A stretch of 64,000 bases of DNA from Polychytrium aggregatum. Taxonomy: Eukaryota > Chytridiomycota > Chytridiomycetes > Polychytriales. Positions 6,371-60,790 of this stretch are shown piece by piece. The position numbers and the translations under genes were made by a program. The notes below the pieces were generated by a model. The model did not search any database. It saw only the letters and a list, made by a program, of their open reading frames with translations, and was not told the DNA's origin. The DNA lies in NCBI RefSeq assembly GCF_025602895.1, contig NW_026516235.1, forward strand, positions 1 to 64,000, given 5' to 3'. The first letter of the stretch is position 1, and the number at the start of each line of letters is the position of its first letter.

Positions 6371-6525
6371 CTGGGTGTCCCTGTGTGAGGGAGGAAGACA
6401 CAGGGCAAAGAGCATAATCGCCGCAGGACATCGGCGAGGGGATTATATAGGGGGGCCGATCAATGTCGCCTGATTTACACAAGACACGCAAGTCATTCGT
6501 GCGTGAAAGTGTCCCATTGGCGGTA
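6371..6525 (-). repeat. TATA-containing repeat 'R2', copy B, abutting a transposon end
   Basis: Read on the minus strand this segment matches 52279-52481. Both begin with a TA dinucleotide and GGGACACTTTCAC, continue with RATGACTTGCGTG, then contain a TATATAAT box followed by CTCGCCGA and GGCGATT, and both end in CACACAGGGACACCCAG. Copy B lacks a G/T-rich stretch present in copy A. Its starting TA is the same TA that ends the deleted transposon at 6524, so the two units sit back to back. It may be the terminal region of a related element; the other end was not found. Confidence 0.7.
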
Positions 6526-6802
6526 CACTGTATTCAGGGGGAAATGGGTGAAGACCGCCGGTCGCTCTCCAGTCTCCACAATCGACCTGCACACTAGTCT
6601 CGGAGTGCCAGCGGTGAATGGTGCTTTTGGACACACTGAAGATGGTGGCGACCTTGTGCAAGCTGCCGAGCTGCGATGCGGGAATCGAGGGTGCTGTGTT
6701 TGGCCATGAATGCGATGAGTGGGTGGGTGTATTCAGGTCACAGAAAAAAACCCTGTCATGGCTCAAAACGGGGGTGTCCCGTTTCATTTTGGAAACGCGG
6801 TA
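6524..6802 (-). mobile_element. 279-bp internally deleted Fanzor/Tc1 transposon (MITE-like)
   Basis: Both ends are bounded by TA, and both terminal sequences align base for base in length with the 30-bp inverted repeats of the full element at 52510-56248. On the minus strand it begins with the AAACGGGACACC terminus, keeps the helix-turn-helix codons of the transposase (KVATIFSVSKSTIHRWH), then jumps directly to the last codons of the Fanzor gene (reading V-C-R-S-I-V-E-type DNA, GTCGATTGTGGAGA...GCGACCGGCGGTCTTCAC) and ends at the other terminus. So it is a clean internal deletion of the same element family, incapable of coding either protein but keeping both ends. Confidence 0.9.
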
Positions 6803-17552: not shown

Positions 17553-17815
17553 TACAGTCGGTCCAGAAAGAAACGGGACAGTTCCTTCCTGGCTTCAGAT
17601 GTCTGAAACCCGCTGACTGACTGTAGGCCCCAGTGAGCAAGCTGTGAGATTGTTTCCCGTCTTGGTTGGCAATCGAGCGGTTTTGGTTGGATGGGAAGCA
17701 TGGTCTTGAATACACCCGGTCGATCTCCTGTGGCGATGATCGACTGGCATACCGAGATCATGTTCCTTGAGGCATTGATGTCTCGATCCCACAGCGTATG
17801 GCAGCTTGCAGCGGC
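17553..17815 (-). mobile_element. Truncated Fanzor transposon relic (3' end only)
   Basis: On the minus strand it reads the last part of a Fanzor gene, with the RuvC-III region CHTLWDRDINASRNM and the tail GDRPGVFKT, followed by a 3' region and a terminal repeat ending in TA at 17553. It is about nine-tenths alike by eye to 40214-40770 over this stretch. The Fanzor frame is lost upstream of about 17815, where similarity stops. A hairpin GGCTTCAGAT/GTCTGAAACC lies at 17591-17610, 38 bp from the end. Sequence from 17816 to 18008 is not recognisable. Confidence 0.85.
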
Positions 17816-23316: not shown

Positions 23317-25587
23317 CTACGACCAGTATTTGGTCAGCCACTCCATATAATGCTCAAAGTGGCCCCTCCATGGATCGTTGCGGTATGCCCACAGATCCCG
23401 GTATTTCTGGACATTGAGGCGAGAGGGAGAAATCCGGGGCACGGTTAGGTACGGCGAGAAGAGGCCGATTGCGATGGGGTTTCGGAACAAAGCCGCTGGC
23501 CCCTTTCACACAAGCCCATACGTATGCCAAGGGCCCTTTCGATCGGCGAGATCAGGCGATGCTACTCTCACAGCCCACCTTCTGCCGCAGGTCACACGTG
23601 CACTTGTTCTGGACAATGTATCCCTTGGATGGGATGTCTTGAGGGCAATGCAGACGGTCGCTGTGGCGGTATCCTAGATGAGGTGGGGGGGGGGCCATCA
23701 GTGATGGTGGATGGCACAGGACAGGGGGAAGCAAGCAAACACATCCGTAGACAACACCGGCTTCAAGACGTTCGCAGCACACAGACCCGACACAGCACTG
23801 ACGCCAGCAGATGCAGCGGCGGTGGATCCTCACCAATGTCGTAAAAGTAGTGCATTTGGTTTTCGTTGAGCAGCAGGCCGGCCGCCAAGGTGTGCACGGG
23901 AGCATCGCCCCACCGCTCAAAGAAGAACCCGCCCGTTCGATCGAGATAGTCAAAGTAGTCGTTGTACTCTTTGCTGCGGAACCACTTGAGATCGGCAATC
24001 TCAAAGTTGGTCCAGAAGTGGATGCCGTTGTAGTCATTCTTCTTTGTGTCGTGGAAGGCCATGAGATGTCGCGGCACAGCCTTGCCTTTCTTGAGCTTGA
24101 TATAATCCATCGTAGATTTCCACAGGCCGCGGACGGTCTGGAGATATTCGTTGGCGATGATGGTGAAGCCGTAGACCTTGTTGTTCTTCTTCATCAGCAG
24201 AAACGGATCAAAGTCGATGTAACAGTAGTAATCTGTGCTTGGCTCGATCTGAAGAAGGGGATTGCAGGGCAAGCACAGCCGCATTAGTCGGCTGACGCTC
24301 AGGCGCATTGGCGGCGATTAAGCATGGATAGCGATGGGTACATATGGGTGCAGATGGGTGCAGATGGGTACAAATGGGTGCAAATGGGCCGATCCGAATG
24401 CCTCAGCAATCACTGGACGAGCCATTGAGCCATGCAATTGAACCGAGCAACCGAACCAAGCAATTGGACGGAGCGTGGCATTTGCAAAGATCGGAAGCAA
24501 AGGATCGTCCGTTCCCCCTCGGCTTTACGCAAGCCGCGCTTACCCGCCAGTAGTACTCATATTTCTCCATCAGTGGGTGCTTGTAGAAGAACCCAGAGTT
24601 CCATCGGCACATGTGGTGGTAGCTCTCGAGGCCACCATAGAGATAGCCCTCAAACTCCTGGCGCGCCATCTCGCGATGGGCACGCTTTGGATCGATGAAG
24701 GACGGCAGCGACCAGTGCTCCTTTGGGATCAGGGCAAACTCGACGGTCGCCTGGGTTGCATTGCGGACGCGATCGATAAACTCCTGGGTAAAGGGCTGAT
24801 CGTTAAAGATGGCATAGGGATAGCGGTAACGGGAGTTGAAGGTGCGCTCAAAGGACTCCATCGTCGCGAGGAGATCGTCGAGCTCGCGGTTGCGCACGAC
24901 AGAGAGGATCACGGCGTTGACCCGCTCTTCGGTCTTGGTCGAAGGACAGTGCTCCATGGCGGTTTTGGCGGCCGCGCCCGAGTCGATGATCTTGTGCTGG
25001 TCCAGCAGCTCTTTGAGGTAGCGGTTCTGATTATAGAGCTCGATCGTGAGGTTGAACGAGTCGCGCTGGCTCTGCTCAACGAGATCGGACCGGAGCTGCT
25101 CGAGCTCGCTCTGGACCATGAGCCGCGTTCGCTTGAGCTCGTCGGCAACGGCAGGGTCCGACAGGGCCTGGACATGGTTCAAGACGGGCTGCTTGGGCTG
25201 GTTTTGCTCGGGCCGCTTGGTGCGGTCTTGGCTGGGCAGCTTCGCGTGGTCTTTGCTCTGTTGCGGGACATGATCATGGCTCGGCTTCTGGCCATTCGCA
25301 GAGCCCTGGGCTGTCCAGCCGGCGCGATCAGCCCTCACAGCCTGCGGCGGCCGATCGTTCGCCTTGGAAGTCGCAGCCGGAGGCTGCTTGCGGACATCAT
25401 TCGTGCGCTTGGGATTCAGGACTACAGGGCCCTGCTGCTCGACGCTCTCGTCCACGGCGCTCATCGCCGCTGGCGAGAATAGCGTGAGCACCGCGATGAC
25501 AATAACACCCAACAGCAGGACGGTCTGAAGCCGCCGAGATATCAAGCGAGAGAAGGGCAAGGCAGCCCGATATCGGTGGAGAATCAT
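23317..25587 (-). CDS. Golgi alpha-1,2-mannosyltransferase, KRE2/KTR family (GT15), 4 exons
   Basis: Type II Golgi enzyme adding alpha-1,2-mannose from GDP-mannose to glycoprotein glycans. Exons on the minus strand are 25587-24544, 24248-23834, 23673-23579 and 23502-23317, giving 579 aa. It has a short cytoplasmic N-terminus, a signal anchor (TVLLLGVIVIAVLTLF at about 23-38), a long Gln/Lys/Pro-rich stem, then the catalytic domain: FNDQPFTQEFIDRV, WRIEPSTDYYCYIDFDPF, HFWTNFEIADLKWFRS and FFFERWGDAPVHTLAAGLLL, which match the family core nearly residue for residue. The WRIEP motif is formed by the exon 1/2 junction. The last exon encodes an unusual aromatic tail (YRNDPWRGHFEHYMEWLTKYW) in place of the usual Cys-rich end; this exon is well coding but its attachment to the gene is inferred. 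Confidence 0.9.
24332..24390. repeat. 10-bp tandem repeat inside mannosyltransferase intron 1
   Basis: About six copies of a unit near ATGGGTGCAG (with ATGGGTACAA variants) lie within the 295-bp first intron. Simple minisatellite; no function apparent. Confidence 0.85.
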
Positions 25588-40198: not shown

Positions 40199-40213
40199 TG
40201 TTGCAATCGCCTG

Positions 40214-40770
40214 TACAGTCGGTCCAGAAAGAAATGGGACAGTCACTTTCTGGCTTCAGCGGCCTGCAGCCTACTGAACTTCCATAGGCCCAGCGGGCAG
40301 GCCGTGAGATTGTTTCCCGTCCTGGTTGGCAATCTCTTTGTTTAGGTTGGTTTGGGAAGCACAGTCTTGAATACACCCGGTCGATCTCCTGTGGCGATGA
40401 TCGACTGGCATACCGAGATCATGTTCCGTGAGGCATTGATGTCTCGATCCCACAGCGTATGGCAGCTTGTACAGCTCCGGACAAAGTGTGGTTTTTCGAT
40501 ATCAAGGTATTCGACCTTCTCGAGTCGCTTGGCTTCCCGACAATGTGAGCATACCTGGGATGTGTTGAACTCGTTCACCGAGCACACATGGATCTTGGGA
40601 CTTGGTGTGGTGCTCATCCAGCGCATCTTGAGCTGGAAGCGATTCCCACAATGGCGTCCTTGATTCAAATCACAGAATGGTCATGGCCAGCGCGCGATTG
40701 TATTGGGTAGCAAAATATTTGATCAATCGTCAAAATCACGGGTGTCCCGTTTTTTATTGGATTGACTGTA
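40214..40770 (-). mobile_element. 557-bp defective Fanzor/Tc1 transposon with both ends
   Basis: Flanked by TA at 40214-40215 and 40769-40770, with inverted terminal repeats of about 30 bp (TACAGTC...GGGACA on each side). The minus-strand 5' end is closely similar to the left end of the intact element, including the ATGACCATT start of the transposase at about 40679-40687. After a large deletion it continues in a Fanzor frame that keeps RWMSTTPSPK, then NEFNTSQVCSHC, CTSC and WDRDINASRNM, i.e. the shifted catalytic Glu, the zinc finger (C-x2-C/C-x2-C) and RuvC-III, but not RuvC-I. A hairpin lies at 40252-40271, 38 bp inside the end. It cannot encode a working nuclease. Confidence 0.92.
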
Positions 40771-41096
40771 ATCGCACCGGATGAGCCAGGGCAGTGACAG
40801 CCAGCAGCCTACCGATGTCGCCCGGCAGTCACTCCAAGAAGAAACAGTATCCACGTTTGTGCAGAGATGACGGCGTTCGAAACGGGACCTGAATACACAC
40901 GCCATGGCCAAACAGTATGCCCAAGGAGACCGAGGTCGTGCTCACAAGCAAACGGGATGCTGCCCTGTTCCAAGCGAGCATGTCGTCTATGATTGCATCT
41001 GCCCAATACGTCCATGGATTTGCACTCCGGGCGTCTCGGTGCATCCCTGTCCTTGCTCCCCTGGTCCCAGAGCAGCGTGCCTCGGACCTGTGCTTT

Positions 41097-41097
<1 letters not shown>

Positions 41098-41183
<86 letters not shown>
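41098..41183. repeat. 7-bp tandem repeat, about 12 copies
   Basis: The unit CGGCAAT is repeated without error about 12 times. It lies between the transposon relic and the perilipin-like gene. The perfect homogeneity suggests recent expansion. Confidence 0.97.
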
Positions 41184-41469
41184 ACATGCGCCAGCGTCCG
41201 TGCAATCAATCAACCGGATCTGGCAGCCCCGCCAAGGCCAGGCCGATCGGCATCCCAACCCTTGCTTGCGCCAGAGCGCACGTGAAGAACGCGCCCGCAG
41301 CAAGGGGCGATTTCACATGCCTGGGCCCGAGCCCGAGCAGCAGCGACACGTGAAAGACATGTGCGTTCTGCCGCCACACGCACACACGGCACTGTGGCGC
41401 AACACGCGCCCCGGGTATGACATTGTGTGACATTGTGTGACAGAGAGTGTGCGCACTGAGAACAACGGC

Positions 41470-52278: not shown

Positions 52279-52481
52279 TACAGAAACGGGACACTTTCAC
52301 ACACGGATGACTTGCGTGGGTTGTGTGGGTTGCTTGGTTGTGTGGGCTGTGTGGACGGTGTTGGTTGTGTGAATCGGACGACTTTGATGGCACCCAAAAC
52401 CCTATATAATCCGCTCGCCGAGGTCCTCTGGCGATTTTGCTCTTTGCCCTGTGTCTCGCTTCCTCACACAGGGACACCCAG
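52279..52481 (+). repeat. TATA-containing repeat 'R2', copy A, just upstream of the intact transposon
   Basis: Matches 6371-6525 (minus strand) from a TA plus GGGACACTTTCAC start to a CACACAGGGACACCCAG end. It contains TATATAAT at 52403-52410 and a G/T-rich insertion (GGTTGTGTGGGTTGCTTGG) absent from the other copy. It ends 29 bp before the left end of the Fanzor element. Its TATA box is about 190 bp from the transposase ATG and points towards it, so it could act as a promoter, but that is inference. Confidence 0.7.
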
Positions 52482-52509
52482 CAGCACCATCGACGAGGCT
52501 TTGGGGTGT

Positions 52510-52539
52510 TACGGGCGATCCAATAAAAAACGGGACACC
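52510..52539. repeat. Left terminal inverted repeat of the Fanzor transposon
   Basis: Starts TACGGGCGATCC and ends ACGGGACACC. It aligns without gaps to the complement of 56219-56248 and to the matching end of the relic at 40741-40770. Confidence 0.92.
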
Positions 52540-52594
52540 CAGGTTTTGACCATTCATCGAATATTTTGTTACCCAATGTTATCGCGCGCTGGCC

Positions 52595-53527
52595 ATGACC
52601 ATTCGCCACACATCCGACTTTCGCACCGCCGCATTGCGATGCTACGCCCTCATCCATAGCCTGCGTAAGGTTGCCTCCATATTCAGTGTATCCAAGAGCA
52701 CCATCCATCGATGGCACCGAGGATGCAAGCTGGATGACCCATCCCGGGTCCCAGCTCGCAGATCCACTTTCTTCGAGCAGGCATGTCCAGTCATTCGCAC
52801 CCTGATTGAACAGGACCCGTTCCAGACTGGTCCTGTGTTGCGATGCAAGCTCGAGTCCATCCTCCAGAGGAAAGTATCACTCTCACTCTGCCACACTGCC
52901 ATCCACCGAGCAGGTCTCTCACACAAGAGAGCAACACACCTCAACAAGTCCAAGCGACTGGATGAGCGAGTGGCACAGTTCAGGGACCAGGTCCGCTCCA
53001 TCGACCCACGACGATTCGTTTTTGTCGACGAGACAGGGATCAGGAAATCCATTTTCCCTCTTTACGGATACTCACCGAAGGGTACTCCGCTTCGCCAGCG
53101 CAATCACATGAAACACAAGTCCGTCTCGGCTGCATTTGCCATCAACCACTCTGGTGTGCTGCATCGCATGTACATCCCCACATCATTCAAGACACACTCG
53201 ATGGTCGAGTTCTTTGAGCGAGCGAGCTTCCCAGACGACTCTGTGATTGTGATGGACAATGTCAGCATGCACAAGACACGGGCTGTCCTGGACTGCATCG
53301 AGCACCGAGGATGGTCAGTGATCTTCACCCCACCTGCTTCACCCGACTTCAATCCCATCGAGAACTTCTTTGGGATTGTGAAGCATCAGTACAGGAAGGC
53401 AGGAGCGCTGAATGCGTCCGAGGGGTTCAAGATCGGGATGGTCACATTGTTCGAGTCTGCCGTTCGGAGGGTGCTTCCAGATGTCTTCCCACGGCTGATT
53501 GAGCGAGCGATGCGCTTCTGGGGTTGA
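52595..53527 (+). CDS. Tc1/mariner-IS630-type transposase (DD34E)
   Basis: Intronless, 310 aa, 85 bp inside the left terminus. The N-terminal DNA-binding region has a helix-turn-helix (LRKVASIFSVSKSTIHRWHR) followed by a second winged-helix-like segment (LQRKVSLSLCHTAIHRAGLS) and a basic linker. The catalytic core is complete: D145 in FVFVDETG, D221 in VIVMDNVSMH and E256 in DFNPIENFFGIVK, with 34 residues between the last two. The WSVIFTPPASPDFNPIE block is the superfamily signature. The length is normal for Tc1-like enzymes. It should cut at the 30-bp ends and integrate at TA. No frameshift or stop is seen, so it may be active. Confidence 0.95.
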   Translation: MTIRHTSDFRTAALRCYALIHSLRKVASIFSVSKSTIHRWHRGCKLDDPSRVPARRSTFFEQACPVIRTLIEQDPFQTGPVLRCKLESILQRKVSLSLCHTAIHRAGLSHKRATHLNKSKRLDERVAQFRDQVRSIDPRRFVFVDETGIRKSIFPLYGYSPKGTPLRQRNHMKHKSVSAAFAINHSGVLHRMYIPTSFKTHSMVEFFERASFPDDSVIVMDNVSMHKTRAVLDCIEHRGWSVIFTPPASPDFNPIENFFGIVKHQYRKAGALNASEGFKIGMVTLFESAVRRVLPDVFPRLIERAMRFWG

Positions 53528-53778
53528 GCTCCCTCCAATCAAGCCGCCATTTTCGCGTTCACATCCCTGGCTTGAACCTCTCGGCGATTTTTGAACAGGG
53601 TCGCTTCCCCAACCAGCCCGCAAAGACGGGTTCCTGCTCTCGGGTATAAATGCCACACCTTCGTCCTGCTGCTTTCTTCCCTCATCTCGCCTTGATCTGA
53701 TCATCGCGCTATTGTACGATAAAAAAAGTCTCTGCTCTGACCAGTACCACTGGCAGGCATCCAGCATCCTCTGCCCCC
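53528..53778 (+). promoter_or_regulatory. Promoter region of the Fanzor gene within the transposon
   Basis: The 251 bp between the two transposon genes contain a TATAAA box at 53645-53650, about 130 bp before the Fanzor ATG, followed by a pyrimidine-rich stretch (CTGCTGCTTTCTTCCCTC). This suggests that Fanzor has its own promoter and is not read only through from the transposase. Confidence 0.6.
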
Positions 53779-56148
53779 ATGCCTCCGAAGCGCAAGGGTA
53801 CCGGTGATGGCCAGCCTCGGCCACCCAGGCCCAAGAAAGCCGGGTCACAGTCGGAGCCTGTCTCTGGTTCGTATTCTGATCCCACGCATGCTTGTTCGTC
53901 TGTTGCTCCGTCGCTCACCACTGCTTCTGCAGATCCAATGGATGTCGATCCCACCGAGCCTGGTCCATCTACTTCCTCGAGTACCGGCAAGCGATGTCCC
54001 AAGTGCGACGGTACCGATCACGAACGTTGCAACACTAGCAAGTGTCCCAAATACCGGCCCCTCAAGAGTTCTGTCGTCCCACTCGTGGATGGAAGGTCAT
54101 CGGCCCCTCAGTTCAGCTGCTTCAAGCAGACGATGGATGGCTGTTGTCTCAATCCCGCTCTCCGCGACAAGATCCAGGCCACCGTCGAGGCCATGACCCA
54201 GATCCAGTTCGAGGCATCCAGGCTGCTCAACCTGCACATCCTCCGGTGCATCGAGCAGGATCTTCCCGTCCCCGTCATCTCCAAGTCCACCCCTGCTTTC
54301 ATCCGCCAATGCTTCACGATCGTCCAGGCCGATGCCCTCTCGCCGACCGGGGACAATGAGAAATACAACGAGCATCTGGTCGCTTCTTTTCGCGACTACC
54401 AGACCACTCGGCACGCAGACCTGCCTCCGGCCCCTCGTCTGCCTGATGGTGCTCACAGTCAGCTTCTCACACTGGCTGTCAATGCCTATGCCACCAACTG
54501 CACCACCCACCTCGACCTGGCCTACTGGAGACTCCTTCGTCGCTTCTGCGCTGCCGTCTTCCCAGCCAACAAGCACAAGCACGAAGCCATCGAGGCCTGT
54601 CTCGAGCTCTTCGAGAAACCAGGGCAGACTCCACCCAAGGCCGATCTCGAGTTCCTCTATCCAGACTTTGGCCACGTCCTGGACGAGTTTCGGTACAGCA
54701 ACGACCAGGACCGCTTCCGGGCCCTCCATCGCCTCTCACACCATGTGAGAATCCTCGCCCGAGACAAGATGGTCGACAATGTCCACAAGTGGATCGACTG
54801 TGACATGCCCGCCCTCCGAGTCACCGAGCTGCAGCGCCAGACCGAGCTGGACGAGCTCACTGCCAGAGGCATTCCCTCCGACGACAAGAGGTTCACCAAC
54901 GCCAAGTCTGAGCTCGGCACCACCAAGGCCAAGATCAACAAGCTGGCCGCCAGGATCAAGTGGTGCCTCAAGCAGCTCGCTCTCGACACTCCTCCGGCCG
55001 TGTGCACGATAGTTCCTCTGTGCACTGCAAGGGCCAAGTATGTCAAGATTGACACGGTCACTCTCTGGGATCTCCTGGGTCCAAAGAAGCGCCTTGGACT
55101 CACCCGGGACAAGCTCAAGGAAGAAGGTGATGACGGTGTCAACAACCAGGATCGTCTCTGGCGCAGTTGCTTCAAGCTGCGTAGTTCCCTCTTCCAAGAG
55201 CGGGACGTGAACAAGAAGCTGTTCAACTACGAGATCAGCACCGATGGCATTGGATGCACCATCGGTCTCGTCAAGTTTGTACGTCGAACCGATCGCACCG
55301 AGACCTCCGAGCCTCCTCCGACTGCCGAGCAGCGCATCCAGGCCCACATCGGCGACCCAGACCCCGATCGCACCACTTGGATTGGCATCGATCCTGGAGT
55401 CGGCTCCATCTTCACGGCGGTCATCCAAGCACCGGGCCACCAAGACGAGGTGGTCTCGTTCTCCAATGCCCACTACCAGCAAATGTGTGGCCATACGTCC
55501 AACACCAAGTGGCACAACACCATGAAGTATCGACTCGATATCGAGACCTGGATGTCGACCACTCCCTCGCCCAAGGTGTCGTCCTCGGAGGCTTTCAAGG
55601 TCCATCTCACCCATGTCCTGCGACCGGAGCTGCGAGTGCAGCTCGACTTCCACCTTGGCAAGAAGGCCCGTCACCATCGCTTCACGGGCCACAAGAGACG
55701 TCAAGTGGCCGTCGACAGGATGTGCAAGGCCGTCCTGAAGCACGCCCCGATACGGACCGATGTGGTGATCGCCTTTGGCAATGCATCATGGCGACAGGGC
55801 AAGGGCTATGCATCCAGCCCTCGGAGGCAGCGGTTTGCTCAGTACTTTGAGCAGTTCGAGCACCACCGTCGCCGTCCCAATCACCATCATGGAAGCGTCA
55901 AGGTGGCCTCGACGAACGAGTTCAACACCTCGCAAGTGTGCTCCAAGTGCCTGGAGCCAGTTCGGTTGGAAGGACTCGATGCGCCCAGTGTTGCGAATTC
56001 CCACTTTGTCAGGAGCTGCAAGAATCCCAGCTGCCGGACAGTGTGGAATCGCGACGTCAATGCGGCGCGCAACATGATCACAGTATGCAGGTCGATTGTG
56101 GAGATCGGAGAGCGACCGGCGGTCTTCACTCGGAGGCTGCCAAAGTGA
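53779..56148 (+). CDS. Fanzor (Fanzor1-type) RNA-guided DNA endonuclease, TnpB homologue
   Basis: Intronless, 789 aa. After a Pro/Ser-rich leader there is a zinc knuckle typical of Fanzor1 (CPKCDGTDHERC then CP, from C73). A long helical region follows, matching the wedge/REC part of TnpB-like proteins, with DELTARGIPSDDKRFTNAKS near 355. The RuvC nuclease has D538 in WIGIDPGVGSIFTAV (RuvC-I). The usual RuvC-II Glu position reads VVIAFGNASW, with no Glu. E714 in STNEFNTSQVCSKC, about 46 residues later, sits at the alternative Glu position described for Fanzors, and D759 in WNRDVNAARNM is RuvC-III. The zinc finger is C721, C724, C747, C752. All catalytic residues are therefore present. Fanzors are established to cut DNA using an RNA made from the 3' end of their own locus; activity of this protein is inferred. 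Confidence 0.95.
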   Translation: MPPKRKGTGDGQPRPPRPKKAGSQSEPVSGSYSDPTHACSSVAPSLTTASADPMDVDPTEPGPSTSSSTGKRCPKCDGTDHERCNTSKCPKYRPLKSSVVPLVDGRSSAPQFSCFKQTMDGCCLNPALRDKIQATVEAMTQIQFEASRLLNLHILRCIEQDLPVPVISKSTPAFIRQCFTIVQADALSPTGDNEKYNEHLVASFRDYQTTRHADLPPAPRLPDGAHSQLLTLAVNAYATNCTTHLDLAYWRLLRRFCAAVFPANKHKHEAIEACLELFEKPGQTPPKADLEFLYPDFGHVLDEFRYSNDQDRFRALHRLSHHVRILARDKMVDNVHKWIDCDMPALRVTELQRQTELDELTARGIPSDDKRFTNAKSELGTTKAKINKLAARIKWCLKQLALDTPPAVCTIVPLCTARAKYVKIDTVTLWDLLGPKKRLGLTRDKLKEEGDDGVNNQDRLWRSCFKLRSSLFQERDVNKKLFNYEISTDGIGCTIGLVKFVRRTDRTETSEPPPTAEQRIQAHIGDPDPDRTTWIGIDPGVGSIFTAVIQAPGHQDEVVSFSNAHYQQMCGHTSNTKWHNTMKYRLDIETWMSTTPSPKVSSSEAFKVHLTHVLRPELRVQLDFHLGKKARHHRFTGHKRRQVAVDRMCKAVLKHAPIRTDVVIAFGNASWRQGKGYASSPRRQRFAQYFEQFEHHRRRPNHHHGSVKVASTNEFNTSQVCSKCLEPVRLEGLDAPSVANSHFVRSCKNPSCRTVWNRDVNAARNMITVCRSIVEIGERPAVFTRRLPK

Positions 56149-56248
56149 TCTGTTTTATTTCTTGTGGCTTTGCTTGACGCAAGCACAGCACATACTACAT
56201 GTTCATGGAAACGGCTGTGGTGTCCCGTTTTTTTCTGAATAAAGTGTA
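56100..56248 (+). ncRNA. Candidate Fanzor guide RNA (omega/fRNA) region
   Basis: In Fanzor and TnpB elements the guide RNA covers the end of the gene and the non-coding 3' region up to the transposon terminus. Here that region runs from the last codons to 56248. It contains a perfect hairpin, TGCTTG-ACG-CAAGCA, at 56171-56185. The same part of the element is retained in all four defective copies in the window. The 5' end and folding are not determined, so the start given is a guess. Confidence 0.45.
56219..56248. repeat. Right terminal inverted repeat of the Fanzor transposon
   Basis: Reads GGTGTCCCGT inwards to AAAGTGTA at the outer end; the complement aligns without gaps to the left repeat and to the outer end of the deleted copy at 6524. 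Confidence 0.92.
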
Positions 56249-56688
56249 GAGTTGCAGCGGCCGCATGGGCCAGTGGTGCTGGCGGCGGGTCCATTACAGC
56301 GCATCGAATAGGCAATCAGACACCATTTCCCTGGGACAAACCACTCTGCACATGGATCAAATCGCACTCGGCCAACAACGGCCAAGGCCACATCATCTCA
56401 TAGAGTCAGTCCAAGACTTGCAATACCGCTGCGGTCATGTCGGTCTGGGTGGTTTTCGCCTTTGCTCCGCGCCTCATGGCCCACGCCACCGCGGCTGGTG
56501 TCGCACCAGCCCACTCGCGGCTGTTTTGGTCACCTGCCTTTGCGCTCTTGCCATGCCCAAGACCTGCATCCTCCGCCCACACCTCTGCCCTGTTTCGTCG
56601 TCCATCCCGCTCTCTCCAGCCCCCATCGGCACCGTCTCATATCCCTCCCCCTCATTTCTCACCATCACACTCCCTCCAGCGATCTGCC
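56249..56688. other. Intergenic sequence
   Basis: About 440 bp between the transposon and the secreted-protein gene, ending in a pyrimidine-rich leader. No gene seen. Confidence 0.5.
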
Positions 56689-58140: not shown

Positions 58141-58321
58141 CGTGAGACACTGGCCTGTCTTCATTGGACGGATTCGCGGACTGTGCATGGCCCGACGCGC
58201 GCTGTGCCATACAGCGTCGCGCAACTGTGGGACAAGTGCAAGTGGATTGTCTGTTGGGCAATCCTGTGGTGGAGACATGCACTCTTCGCGGCACTGGCGT
58301 CGCTGAACGATATGCGTCATT

Positions 58322-58470
58322 CGCATCATTGGAAGCGCCATTAGCATCATTGGAAGCGCCATTAGCATCATTGGAAGCGCCATTAGCATCATTGGAAGTG
58401 CCATTAGAATTAGCATTAGCATCATTAGCATCAGAATTATCGGCATTAGCATCAGCATCATTGGCAGCAT
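58322..58470. repeat. 21-bp tandem repeat with degenerate tail
   Basis: Four near-identical copies of ATTGGAAGCGCCATTAGCAT plus one base, then shorter derivatives built from CATTAGCAT. Lies in the 1.3-kb stretch 57844-59160 between the secreted protein and the SH3 gene, where I see no gene. Confidence 0.9.
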
Positions 58471-60117: not shown

Positions 60118-60504
60118 GGCCGCAGCAGTGCATCCTCTGCATCATTCATATTCCCTATCCCACCCCTCCACGAATGGCCAGAGCCTGTGGCCAACCGATG
60201 CTTGGTCCGTGCGCCCTGCCGTCGGCCGCCCGTCCGCCTGGTCGGGCATAATTTTGCACTCACCCGTCTCTATTACTTTCCTCTGCCTTGTTTGAACCAC
60301 TCCTTCGTCCCCAACTCTGCTCAACTCGACCCCCGCCGGTCGGCCATGTACCTTACTTGTCACTTTCACTGTCATCATGCTATGAATTTCAACTCGTGCT
60401 CCCCTCCTCCCAGCGCTGGCTGCCTGCATGCATGGATCGATGCGGACCCTTCTCCTTTGGTGCAGTGCGCGGCTCTTGCGACAGGATGGGACACCCGGAT
60501 TCTG
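60118..60504. other. Intergenic sequence
   Basis: Nearly 400 bp of 3' flank of the SH3 gene; no gene seen. Just before the relic there is GGATGGGACACCCGGATTCTG, which resembles a transposon terminus in part only. Confidence 0.4.
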
Positions 60505-60790
60505 TACAGTTGTTCCAGGAAAATACTGGGGCAGTGTCATTTTTTCTCTGGCACCAGAGGCCTGAAGCCTGCTGAACTCCCGTAGACCCCCCCCTCGTAG
60601 GCAAGCCGTGCGATTGATTCCGGTCTTCGTTGGCAATGGCTTTGCTTCCGTTGGTTTCGAGAGCACAATCTTGAATACACCCGGTCGATCTCCTGTGGCA
60701 ATGATCGACGGACACGGTGCCTCGATACGGCAGGTTGGTGGATGCATTCGACTCCTTGGACCTCCCGAGTCACTTGGCCTCCATTATCCT
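60505..60790 (-). mobile_element. Degenerate Fanzor transposon relic (3' end)
   Basis: From TA at 60505 inward it aligns with 40214 and 17553: a terminal repeat (TACAGTTGTTCCAGGAAAAT), the hairpin at 60550-60569, the conserved TTGGCAATGG stretch, and then Fanzor C-terminal DNA (TTGAATACACCCGGTCGATC). It carries more substitutions and two deletions, and similarity fades near 60790. No open frame remains. Confidence 0.8.

Follow-up and report, generated by a model that had tools for sequence, protein, structure and literature searches.

What does a Fanzor nuclease do for the transposon that carries it, and how do the copies of such a transposon come to differ from one another? The benefit of Fanzor to its transposon is unsettled in the available portions of the literature consulted. 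The first 64,000 nucleotides of contig NW_026516235.1 of Polychytrium aggregatum (the window) contain a Tc1/mariner DNA transposon that carries a Fanzor1 as its second gene, with both reading frames open. Its family offers dozens of intact copies, both alleles at several sites, a predicted target-adjacent motif (TAM), and alleles with differing contents between agreeing flanks, which together permit a direct test of the role of Fanzor. Repeated ectopic gene conversion has probably overwritten the copies at shared sites, with the family forming one recombining pool.

The TA-flanked element lies exactly at 52510-56248, both TAs included, according to the alignment of left ends (39) and right ends (40). 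The left junction reads TA followed by C, with a T in the flank, and the right junction reads GTG followed by TA. TA is present at the left junction of 44/44 distinct sites (in L030 only after a one-base alignment shift) and in 40/41 right ends, the remaining one having TG. The earlier note had described matching 30-bp ends with TA; the TA stands, and the match is partial.

52510..52539, + strand: left terminal inverted repeat including TA, agreeing with the right end at 22/30 positions
56219..56248, - strand: right terminal inverted repeat including TA, from the end alignment and its 22/30 match to the left end
52595..53527, + strand: DD34E transposase of 310 aa, Tc1/mariner (IS630-like), from the open ORF, profiles, and catalytic residues
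53645..53650, + strand: TATA-like box 5' of the Fanzor gene, by sequence match only

The transposase matches PF13358 (E 4.2e-24) and NF033545 IS630 (E 1.4e-36), both above cut-off. Its frame is open and D145, D221, and E256 are all there, as had been claimed, with 34 residues separating D221 and E256. The DD34E transposase, TA duplication, and terminal inverted repeats identify the element as a member of Tc1/mariner (IS630-Tc1-mariner). The TATA box ascribed to the element is also present as the single TATA[AT]A between the two genes, a sequence match only. A phmmer search of solved structures with the transposase gave nothing useful, and the viral contigs searched held no relative of the transposase or of the Fanzor alignment.

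53779..56148, + strand: Fanzor1 RNA-guided nuclease homologue of 789 aa with an intact frame, from the ORF, PF07282, and a profile match to SpuFz1 (8gkh)

The Fanzor ORF matches PF07282 (E 6.4e-9) and has D538 (in DPG), E714 (Ealt), D759 (the final D), and the zinc-finger cysteines C721, C724, C747, and C752, in line with the description of an undamaged 789-aa protein with all RuvC acids and both zinc sites. A DPG at RuvC1 together with an Ealt glutamate placed six residues ahead of the zinc finger is given as the Fanzor1 "fingerprint" in the available part of PMC10711439, and both are found here as D538-P-G and E714-x6-C721. Likewise, the Fanzor1 pattern D-X(125,275)-[TS][TS]XX-C4 zinc finger-X(5,50)-RD, from the accessible text of PMC3627910, is found as D538, T717 S718, C721 C724 C747 C752, and R758 D759. 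Among 40 copies, D538 and D759 are conserved in 40/40, E714 in 39/40 (K in one), and C721 in 38/40 (R in two). A single-sequence phmmer search of solved structures with Fanzor gave no match at E 0.01. A profile of seven sequences matched SpuFz1 (8gkh) weakly and at the C-terminus only (E 0.0041), and the same profile gave E 0.06 for the Guillardia theta Fanzor1. The guided_TnpB model matched the protein only below its cut-off. The dN/dS of Fanzor is 0.28. This low value was rejected as proof of selection on Fanzor itself, because copies with a deleted transposase (0.153) and full ones (0.148) show equal constraint across transposase codons 90-190.

How might this nuclease find a target? Three stretches at the edges of the element are relevant.

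52509..52511, + strand: left-junction TTA, made up of the flanking T and the TA duplicate; predicted TAM, from the T bias at 44 sites
56149..56248, + strand: predicted guide-RNA scaffold (3' untranslated stretch, right end, and TA), from its position (PMC10432273, PMC10711439, both as far as available)
56249..56263, + strand: predicted guide, the first 15 nt of the right flank, from the SpuFz1 extension

The base preceding the left TA is T at 41/44 distinct sites, A at two, and C at one (background T 0.242, p 3e-22). The right side has no mirror of this T, the +1 position being A in 8/35. By analogy with the SpuFz1 TAM, CATA, TTA at the left junction is a predicted TAM, and a 14-15 nt extension is reported for SpuFz1 (both in the available part of PMC10432273). 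Nucleotide diversity is 0.025 in the 56149..56248 region versus 0.039 in the Fanzor coding sequence. The consensus fold of right ends scored z -2.9 against column shuffles in the element's own family and -4.0 for 20 ends of the second Fanzor type (FZ2), with no clear double change. For the window copy, folding the 3' end as a single strand gave no signal (z -0.02).

Is the element mobile? The genome contains at least 57 near-identical copies of the window Fanzor (scored), 47/57 of them without a stop. The empty TA sites for which the earlier note proposed a search are absent at the seven sites searched as joined flanks. A second allele is present at 4/7 of these sites and is filled at all four; the other three sites are represented by one locus only. 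The closest non-allelic pair among the aligned copies differs by at least 2.6%. These results do not support the proposal of a recently or currently mobile element. The family comes close to the uniformly fixed and divergent copies that had been named as evidence against it; divergence cannot date copies if their contents have been exchanged.

The second Fanzor type has at least 53 genomic copies that are 40% identical to the window Fanzor, and part of these sit behind the same transposase. Several deletion derivatives were said to lie near the window copy, and four are listed here, each with the identity of the same-site stretch on C395.

6546..6797, - strand: transposase and Fanzor 3' fragments with a weak left-end match (99.3%)
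17553..17808, - strand: derivative with an FZ2-type right end (99.0%)
40211..40771, - strand: window-family left end, FZ2-type right end, and a Fanzor C-terminal fragment (99.4%)
60502..60709, + strand: derivative resembling 17553..17808 and 40211..40771 (99.9%)

The derivatives exist, and the idea that they are simple deletions of the window copy fails: those at 17553-17808, 40211-40771, and 60502-60709 are not, because they have FZ2-type right ends or resemble those that do.

What do the two alleles of a site contain? On C395, the allele of the window copy has another member of the family inserted at that TA. It differs by 3.9%, lacks 243 bp of the transposase gene, and has one stop in its Fanzor. 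In nine allelic pairs with sequence, the elements differ by 1.94-3.93% in 7/9, beside a range of 2.6-5.1% for 699 non-allelic pairs; the zone of deletions (53370-53560) is masked in pair differences, which hides 10 of L016/L036 and 13 of L020/L026. The remaining 2/9 pairs are unswapped (0.45% and 0.03%). Allelic here means flanks of 200-1400 bp, with C257/C395 instead compared at five places. The flanks have 14 differences over ~6,870 positions, a sum added by hand that leaves out the right flank of L002/L012 (95.6-97.6%) and includes three pairs with the left flank only. As a control, the window derivatives were compared between C257 and C395, and 4/4 proved 99.0-99.9% identical; these derivatives are short and less similar to their relatives. 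The pair L002/L012, with its diverged right flank, may be an old duplication.

Ordinary mutation was rejected as the main source of the allelic differences, since in 537/629 of them both states are also found at other sites, versus 0.111 for simulated fresh mutations. Alleles also differ by 100-250-bp deletions that other sites share; counts near the shared deletion in L008/L009 are inflated because of misalignment. Another source could be repeat-directed mutation of the RIP type pushing alleles apart, and about 70% of the biallelic polymorphisms are indeed transitions. However, the recurrence of both states, a transversion share (0.27 to 0.35) that is similar for rare and for common variants, and the shared deletions led to its rejection as the main source, making it very improbable.

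Evidence for exchange comes from linkage among copies. The r2 is 0.37 below 10 bp, 0.042 at 25-50 bp, 0.031 at 50-100 bp, and 0.028 above 400 bp (baseline 0.027). In other words, linkage is near baseline beyond ~50 bp, and transversions alone behave similarly; the near-range value was reached by 0/1000 permutations. Tract edges are further evidence. The pair L053/L025 has zero differences left of 53698 and then 46 by 55011, and 57/60 differences of L016/L036 lie at or right of 53401, while those of L020/L026 are spread without a clear edge. On these sequence comparisons the family resembles a pool in which copies at shared sites recombine, and we infer ectopic gene conversion as the cause of the overwritten contents. 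In one recombining pool, the lineage of a site cannot be read from divergence or from deletion type. Divergence may not date copies of such elements.

Could the mosaics be false, created when reads of different copies were mixed during assembly or polishing? Dozens of 3.7 kb copies at ~96% identity are difficult to assemble, and the analysis uses the assembly sequence alone. However, the allele differences include 100-250-bp deletions common to other sites, tract edges, and intermediate-frequency variants. Furthermore, linkage is lost within ~25 bp rather than at read length, and every pair of non-allelic copies in the alignment differs. An artefact of this kind is improbable.

What starts the conversion? 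Ectopic gene conversion of the ordinary kind, acting on any similar repeats after meiotic or mitotic breaks and with transposase and Fanzor uninvolved, has an even chance of being the explanation. Long similar copies are natural partners for it, and no observation speaks directly against it. The differences are patchy inside the element, the outer 195 and 128 bp being identical in L002/L012, and linkage also drops with distance in the ends of the FZ2 subgroup (13 copies). Repeats in this genome may undergo conversion generally, the comparisons being of Fanzor-family elements only.

If the proteins act as their families do, the transposase would insert the element at TA by a cut-and-paste route, and Fanzor would bind an RNA made at the right end, with a 3' extension that reproduces the flank. 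The Fanzor-RNA would then cut TTA plus flank, which is the site vacated by the element, and repair of the break would copy an element back into it. Element-made breaks, by excision and Fanzor re-cutting, may also drive conversion, with repair that uses the homologue as template and switches to other copies, so that sites stay filled while their contents are swapped. We consider such breaks a possible but minority explanation of the exchange. Intact frames are found for Fanzor in 31/40 copies versus 16/40 for the transposase, but the copies were selected by best Fanzor or transposase score, mainly Fanzor, which favours intact Fanzor frames. The TTA asymmetry (41/44 left sites) fits this explanation, as do the filled second alleles (4/4, with 0 empty at seven sites), but old fixed insertions would give the same occupancy. 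TnpB is reported to act in this way in bacteria (available part of PMC11870625). No footprint or empty site was seen, and the observed tract edges fall inside the element. A fuller version, in which the nuclease keeps sites occupied through re-cutting and copy-switching refilling of excised sites and makes dozens of dispersed transposons a single recombining gene pool, with whole Fanzor-plus-right-end modules exchanged behind one transposase, is doubtful. The copies appear to stay in place while sequence from sister copies overwrites their interior, and this may be a natural trace of cut-and-copy repair. Among the papers listed by a literature search combining Fanzor and gene conversion, none concerned Fanzor elements, judged by title, and a search on gap repair and template switching gave no papers.

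How does the element compare with known systems, as far as the available parts of their sources go? SPu-1 of Spizellomyces punctatus also has a Fanzor1 (SpuFz1) between 30-33-bp ends at TA sites (PMC3627910, PMC10432273), and fixed bases at its left end make up the TAM (CA plus TA there, T plus TA here). It too has many copies and Fanzor-less relatives. However, SPu-1 has a single ORF, SpuFz1 is only a distant protein match (8gkh profile E 0.004), and the portions available (PMC3627910, PMC10432273) mention no exchange of contents among copies. The mariner elements PGv-1 and PUl-1 resemble the element here in encoding a mariner transposase together with a Fanzor1, with TA duplicates, and the association of Fanzor with mariner-type elements was already in the literature, as the earlier note stated (PMC3627910). 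PGv-1 is single-copy and viral (PMC3627910), whereas the family here numbers at least 57 copies, and one transposase precedes two Fanzor types. In the TnpB of IS200/IS605, for which retention and gene drive are discussed, the nuclease is guided by its own flank and the TAM equals the insertion motif (PMC11870625), as is predicted here. That TnpB differs in its transposase and its prokaryotic host, whereas the active site here consists of DPG plus Ealt.

The transposon of the window occupies both alleles of its site. The second allele lies on contig C395, where collinearity with the window holds at five places. The flanks of the two alleles differ at 2 of 500 bases compared, and the elements themselves differ at 130 of 3306 positions. 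In the C395 allele, 243 bp are missing from the transposase gene and the Fanzor carries one stop. Features of the window include:

52510-56248: transposon, including the TA on each side
52595-53527: transposase, 310 aa
53779-56148: Fanzor, 789 aa
34048-34119: predicted tRNA-Gly (gcc)
41083-41200: short tandem repeats, 7-bp TCGGCAA units
58293-58460: short tandem repeats, 21-bp units

The transposase contains D145, D221, and E256, as the earlier note had claimed, matches DDE_3 and the IS630 family in profile comparison, and would move the element by cut-and-paste. The Fanzor, which would cut DNA with a guide RNA, displays the DPG and Ealt features called a Fanzor "fingerprint" in the available text of PMC10711439, and has a C4 zinc finger and a final RD. 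A profile of seven relatives reached SpuFz1 (8gkh) at E 0.004 across the C-terminus, and the match to the prokaryotic guided_TnpB model fell below the model cut-off. Terminal repeats are indeed present, although the 30-bp ends described earlier as matching are identical at 22 of 30 positions. The Fanzor-mariner association that the same note drew from the literature is on record, since mariner elements with Fanzor1 are described in the available text of PMC3627910.

A search of 64.68 Mb in 418 contigs found at least 57 scored copies of the window-type Fanzor (10 of the 57 with one stop) and at least 129 transposase matches. Among the typed transposase matches, one lies no more than 400 bp upstream of the Fanzor in 31 of the 57 copies. 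The alignment comprised 40 elements with both ends present, namely 39 including the window copy plus the C395 allele; locus L019, lacking the left end, was left out. Of these, 31 have an intact Fanzor frame, 16 an intact transposase frame, and 14 both. Two near-identical alleles were dropped for deletion typing, and the 38 remaining copies had 18 full-length transposase genes, 12 with a common C-terminal deletion, 3 with another, 4 with a common N-terminal deletion, and 1 other.

Joined-flank searches of the assembly for the empty TA sites that the earlier note had proposed to look for found none at seven sites. A second locus was present for four of the seven and was filled in all four; three sites had one locus. 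Where length alone is known, alleles are unequal on contigs C379/C124 (3497 vs 3387) and C90/C389 (3738 vs 3614) and nearly equal on C64/C79 (3740 vs 3741). Sequence was available for nine allelic pairs, three of which cover ~2.3 kb and the left flank only. With 53370-53560 masked, their elements differ by 3.93, 3.44, 3.15, 3.13, 2.15, 1.98, 1.94, 0.45, and 0.03%; non-allelic pairs (n=699) differ by 2.6-5.1%. Allelic flanks show 14 differences in ~6,870 positions, a hand sum that leaves out the right flank of the pair L002/L012, which is 95.6-97.6% identical and contains another repeat.

Where do the allelic differences come from? Both states are present at other sites for 537 of 629 differences, and random fresh mutations were expected in simulation to have both states elsewhere in 11% of cases. 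The pair L053/L025 has no difference left of 53698 and all 46 within 53698-55011. Likewise, 57 of 60 differences between L016 and L036 lie at or to the right of 53401. These two patterns look like conversion tracts. Differences between L020 and L026 are scattered without a tract edge. The apparent exchange could instead come from a misleading assembly, which we consider improbable. As a control, stretches with four window derivatives were 99.0-99.9% identical to their same-site C395 counterparts; this control is partial because the derivatives have shorter sequences that have diverged further from their relatives. Ectopic gene conversion would be the exchange process. No report of Fanzor elements swapping contents between copies was found in the available text of the open-access literature searched.

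Linkage among copies has been lost. Calculated from 217 shared variants across 38 copies, r2 was 0.37 below 10 bp, 0.085 at 10-25 bp, 0.042 at 25-50 bp, 0.031 at 50-100 bp, and 0.028 beyond 400 bp, with 0.027 expected without linkage. The transversion-only curve was similar. A common transposase deletion (16 carriers among 38 copies in this count) was linked to variants up to 150 bp away and hardly farther. Linkage equilibrium is thus nearly reached among the aligned copies. What would supply the breaks? Ordinary causes have an even chance of doing so, and supply by excision together with Fanzor cutting appears rather unlikely. Purifying constraint (dN/dS 0.28 for the Fanzor, 0.225 for the transposase) has no power to decide the source, because deleted transposases are as constrained as full ones.

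Left ends suggest a possible target-adjacent motif (TAM). Sixty were examined and 44 distinct sites kept; the base before the left TA is T at 41, A at 2, and C at 1. The left end of locus L030 needs a one-base shift of reading and has TTA there too. The first base past the right TA is G12, C12, A8, T3 (35 sites), so the left T preference has no mirror. The available text of PMC10432273 describes multi-copy Fanzor elements whose left flank equals the TAM; for SpuFz1, a conserved CA next to the left end plus TA gives the TAM CATA. By analogy, the TAM of the window family is predicted to be TTA, and a one-sided transposase preference for the left T would look alike.

A second Fanzor type, FZ2, stands behind the same transposase. 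Between its left end and its transposase stop, locus L028 (contig C63) matches the window family at 96%; past the stop it has FZ2 (854 aa, 40% identical to the window type) and a different right end. FZ2 has at least 53 copies (identity 77-100%), seven of which, by eye count of coordinates among the matches listed, lie 93-94 bp downstream of a window-family transposase. The Fanzor and right end therefore seem to act as one module. Of 20 FZ2 right ends fetched, the 13 that form the 81-85% group (L068-L071, L073-L081) are directly followed by a common sequence that starts AGTATCTCGCACTG, with small gaps; of 150 candidates, 40 places scored for it. This group seems to be part of a larger repeat or inserted in a repeated target; if so, its guide would be nearly constant. 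An FZ2-type fragment also adjoins the allelic loci L002 (from ~4580) and L012 (from ~4573), followed by unlike sequence in the two, which in L012 is this same constant flank (AGTATCTCGCACTG...).

Diversity is 0.025 in the predicted guide RNA scaffold (56149-56248) vs 0.039 in the Fanzor CDS. Against column shuffles, the consensus fold had z -2.9 for the window family and z -4.0 for FZ2-type ends (20 of 22; the two left out were either family-1-like or allelic to a window copy). No clear double changes supported the consensus folds in either set. The single-strand fold was no better than shuffles for the window strand (z -0.02) and had z -1.81 for FZ2. These fold statistics lend weak support to a guide RNA at the right end.

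Other features were noted. The open frame at 24403-25587 of the window matches the mannosyltransferase family PF01793, a fungal family, which makes a fungus the probable host. A stretch of ~80 bp just outside the element (52400-52481, and again at 6371-6452) contains CTATATAA and recurs at 79-92% identity in at least 36 listed places; it is probably an unrelated repeat or promoter-like unit. In the right flank of locus L060, left-end-like sequence starts no more than about a dozen bases from the right end, which suggests same-family neighbours in the same direction.
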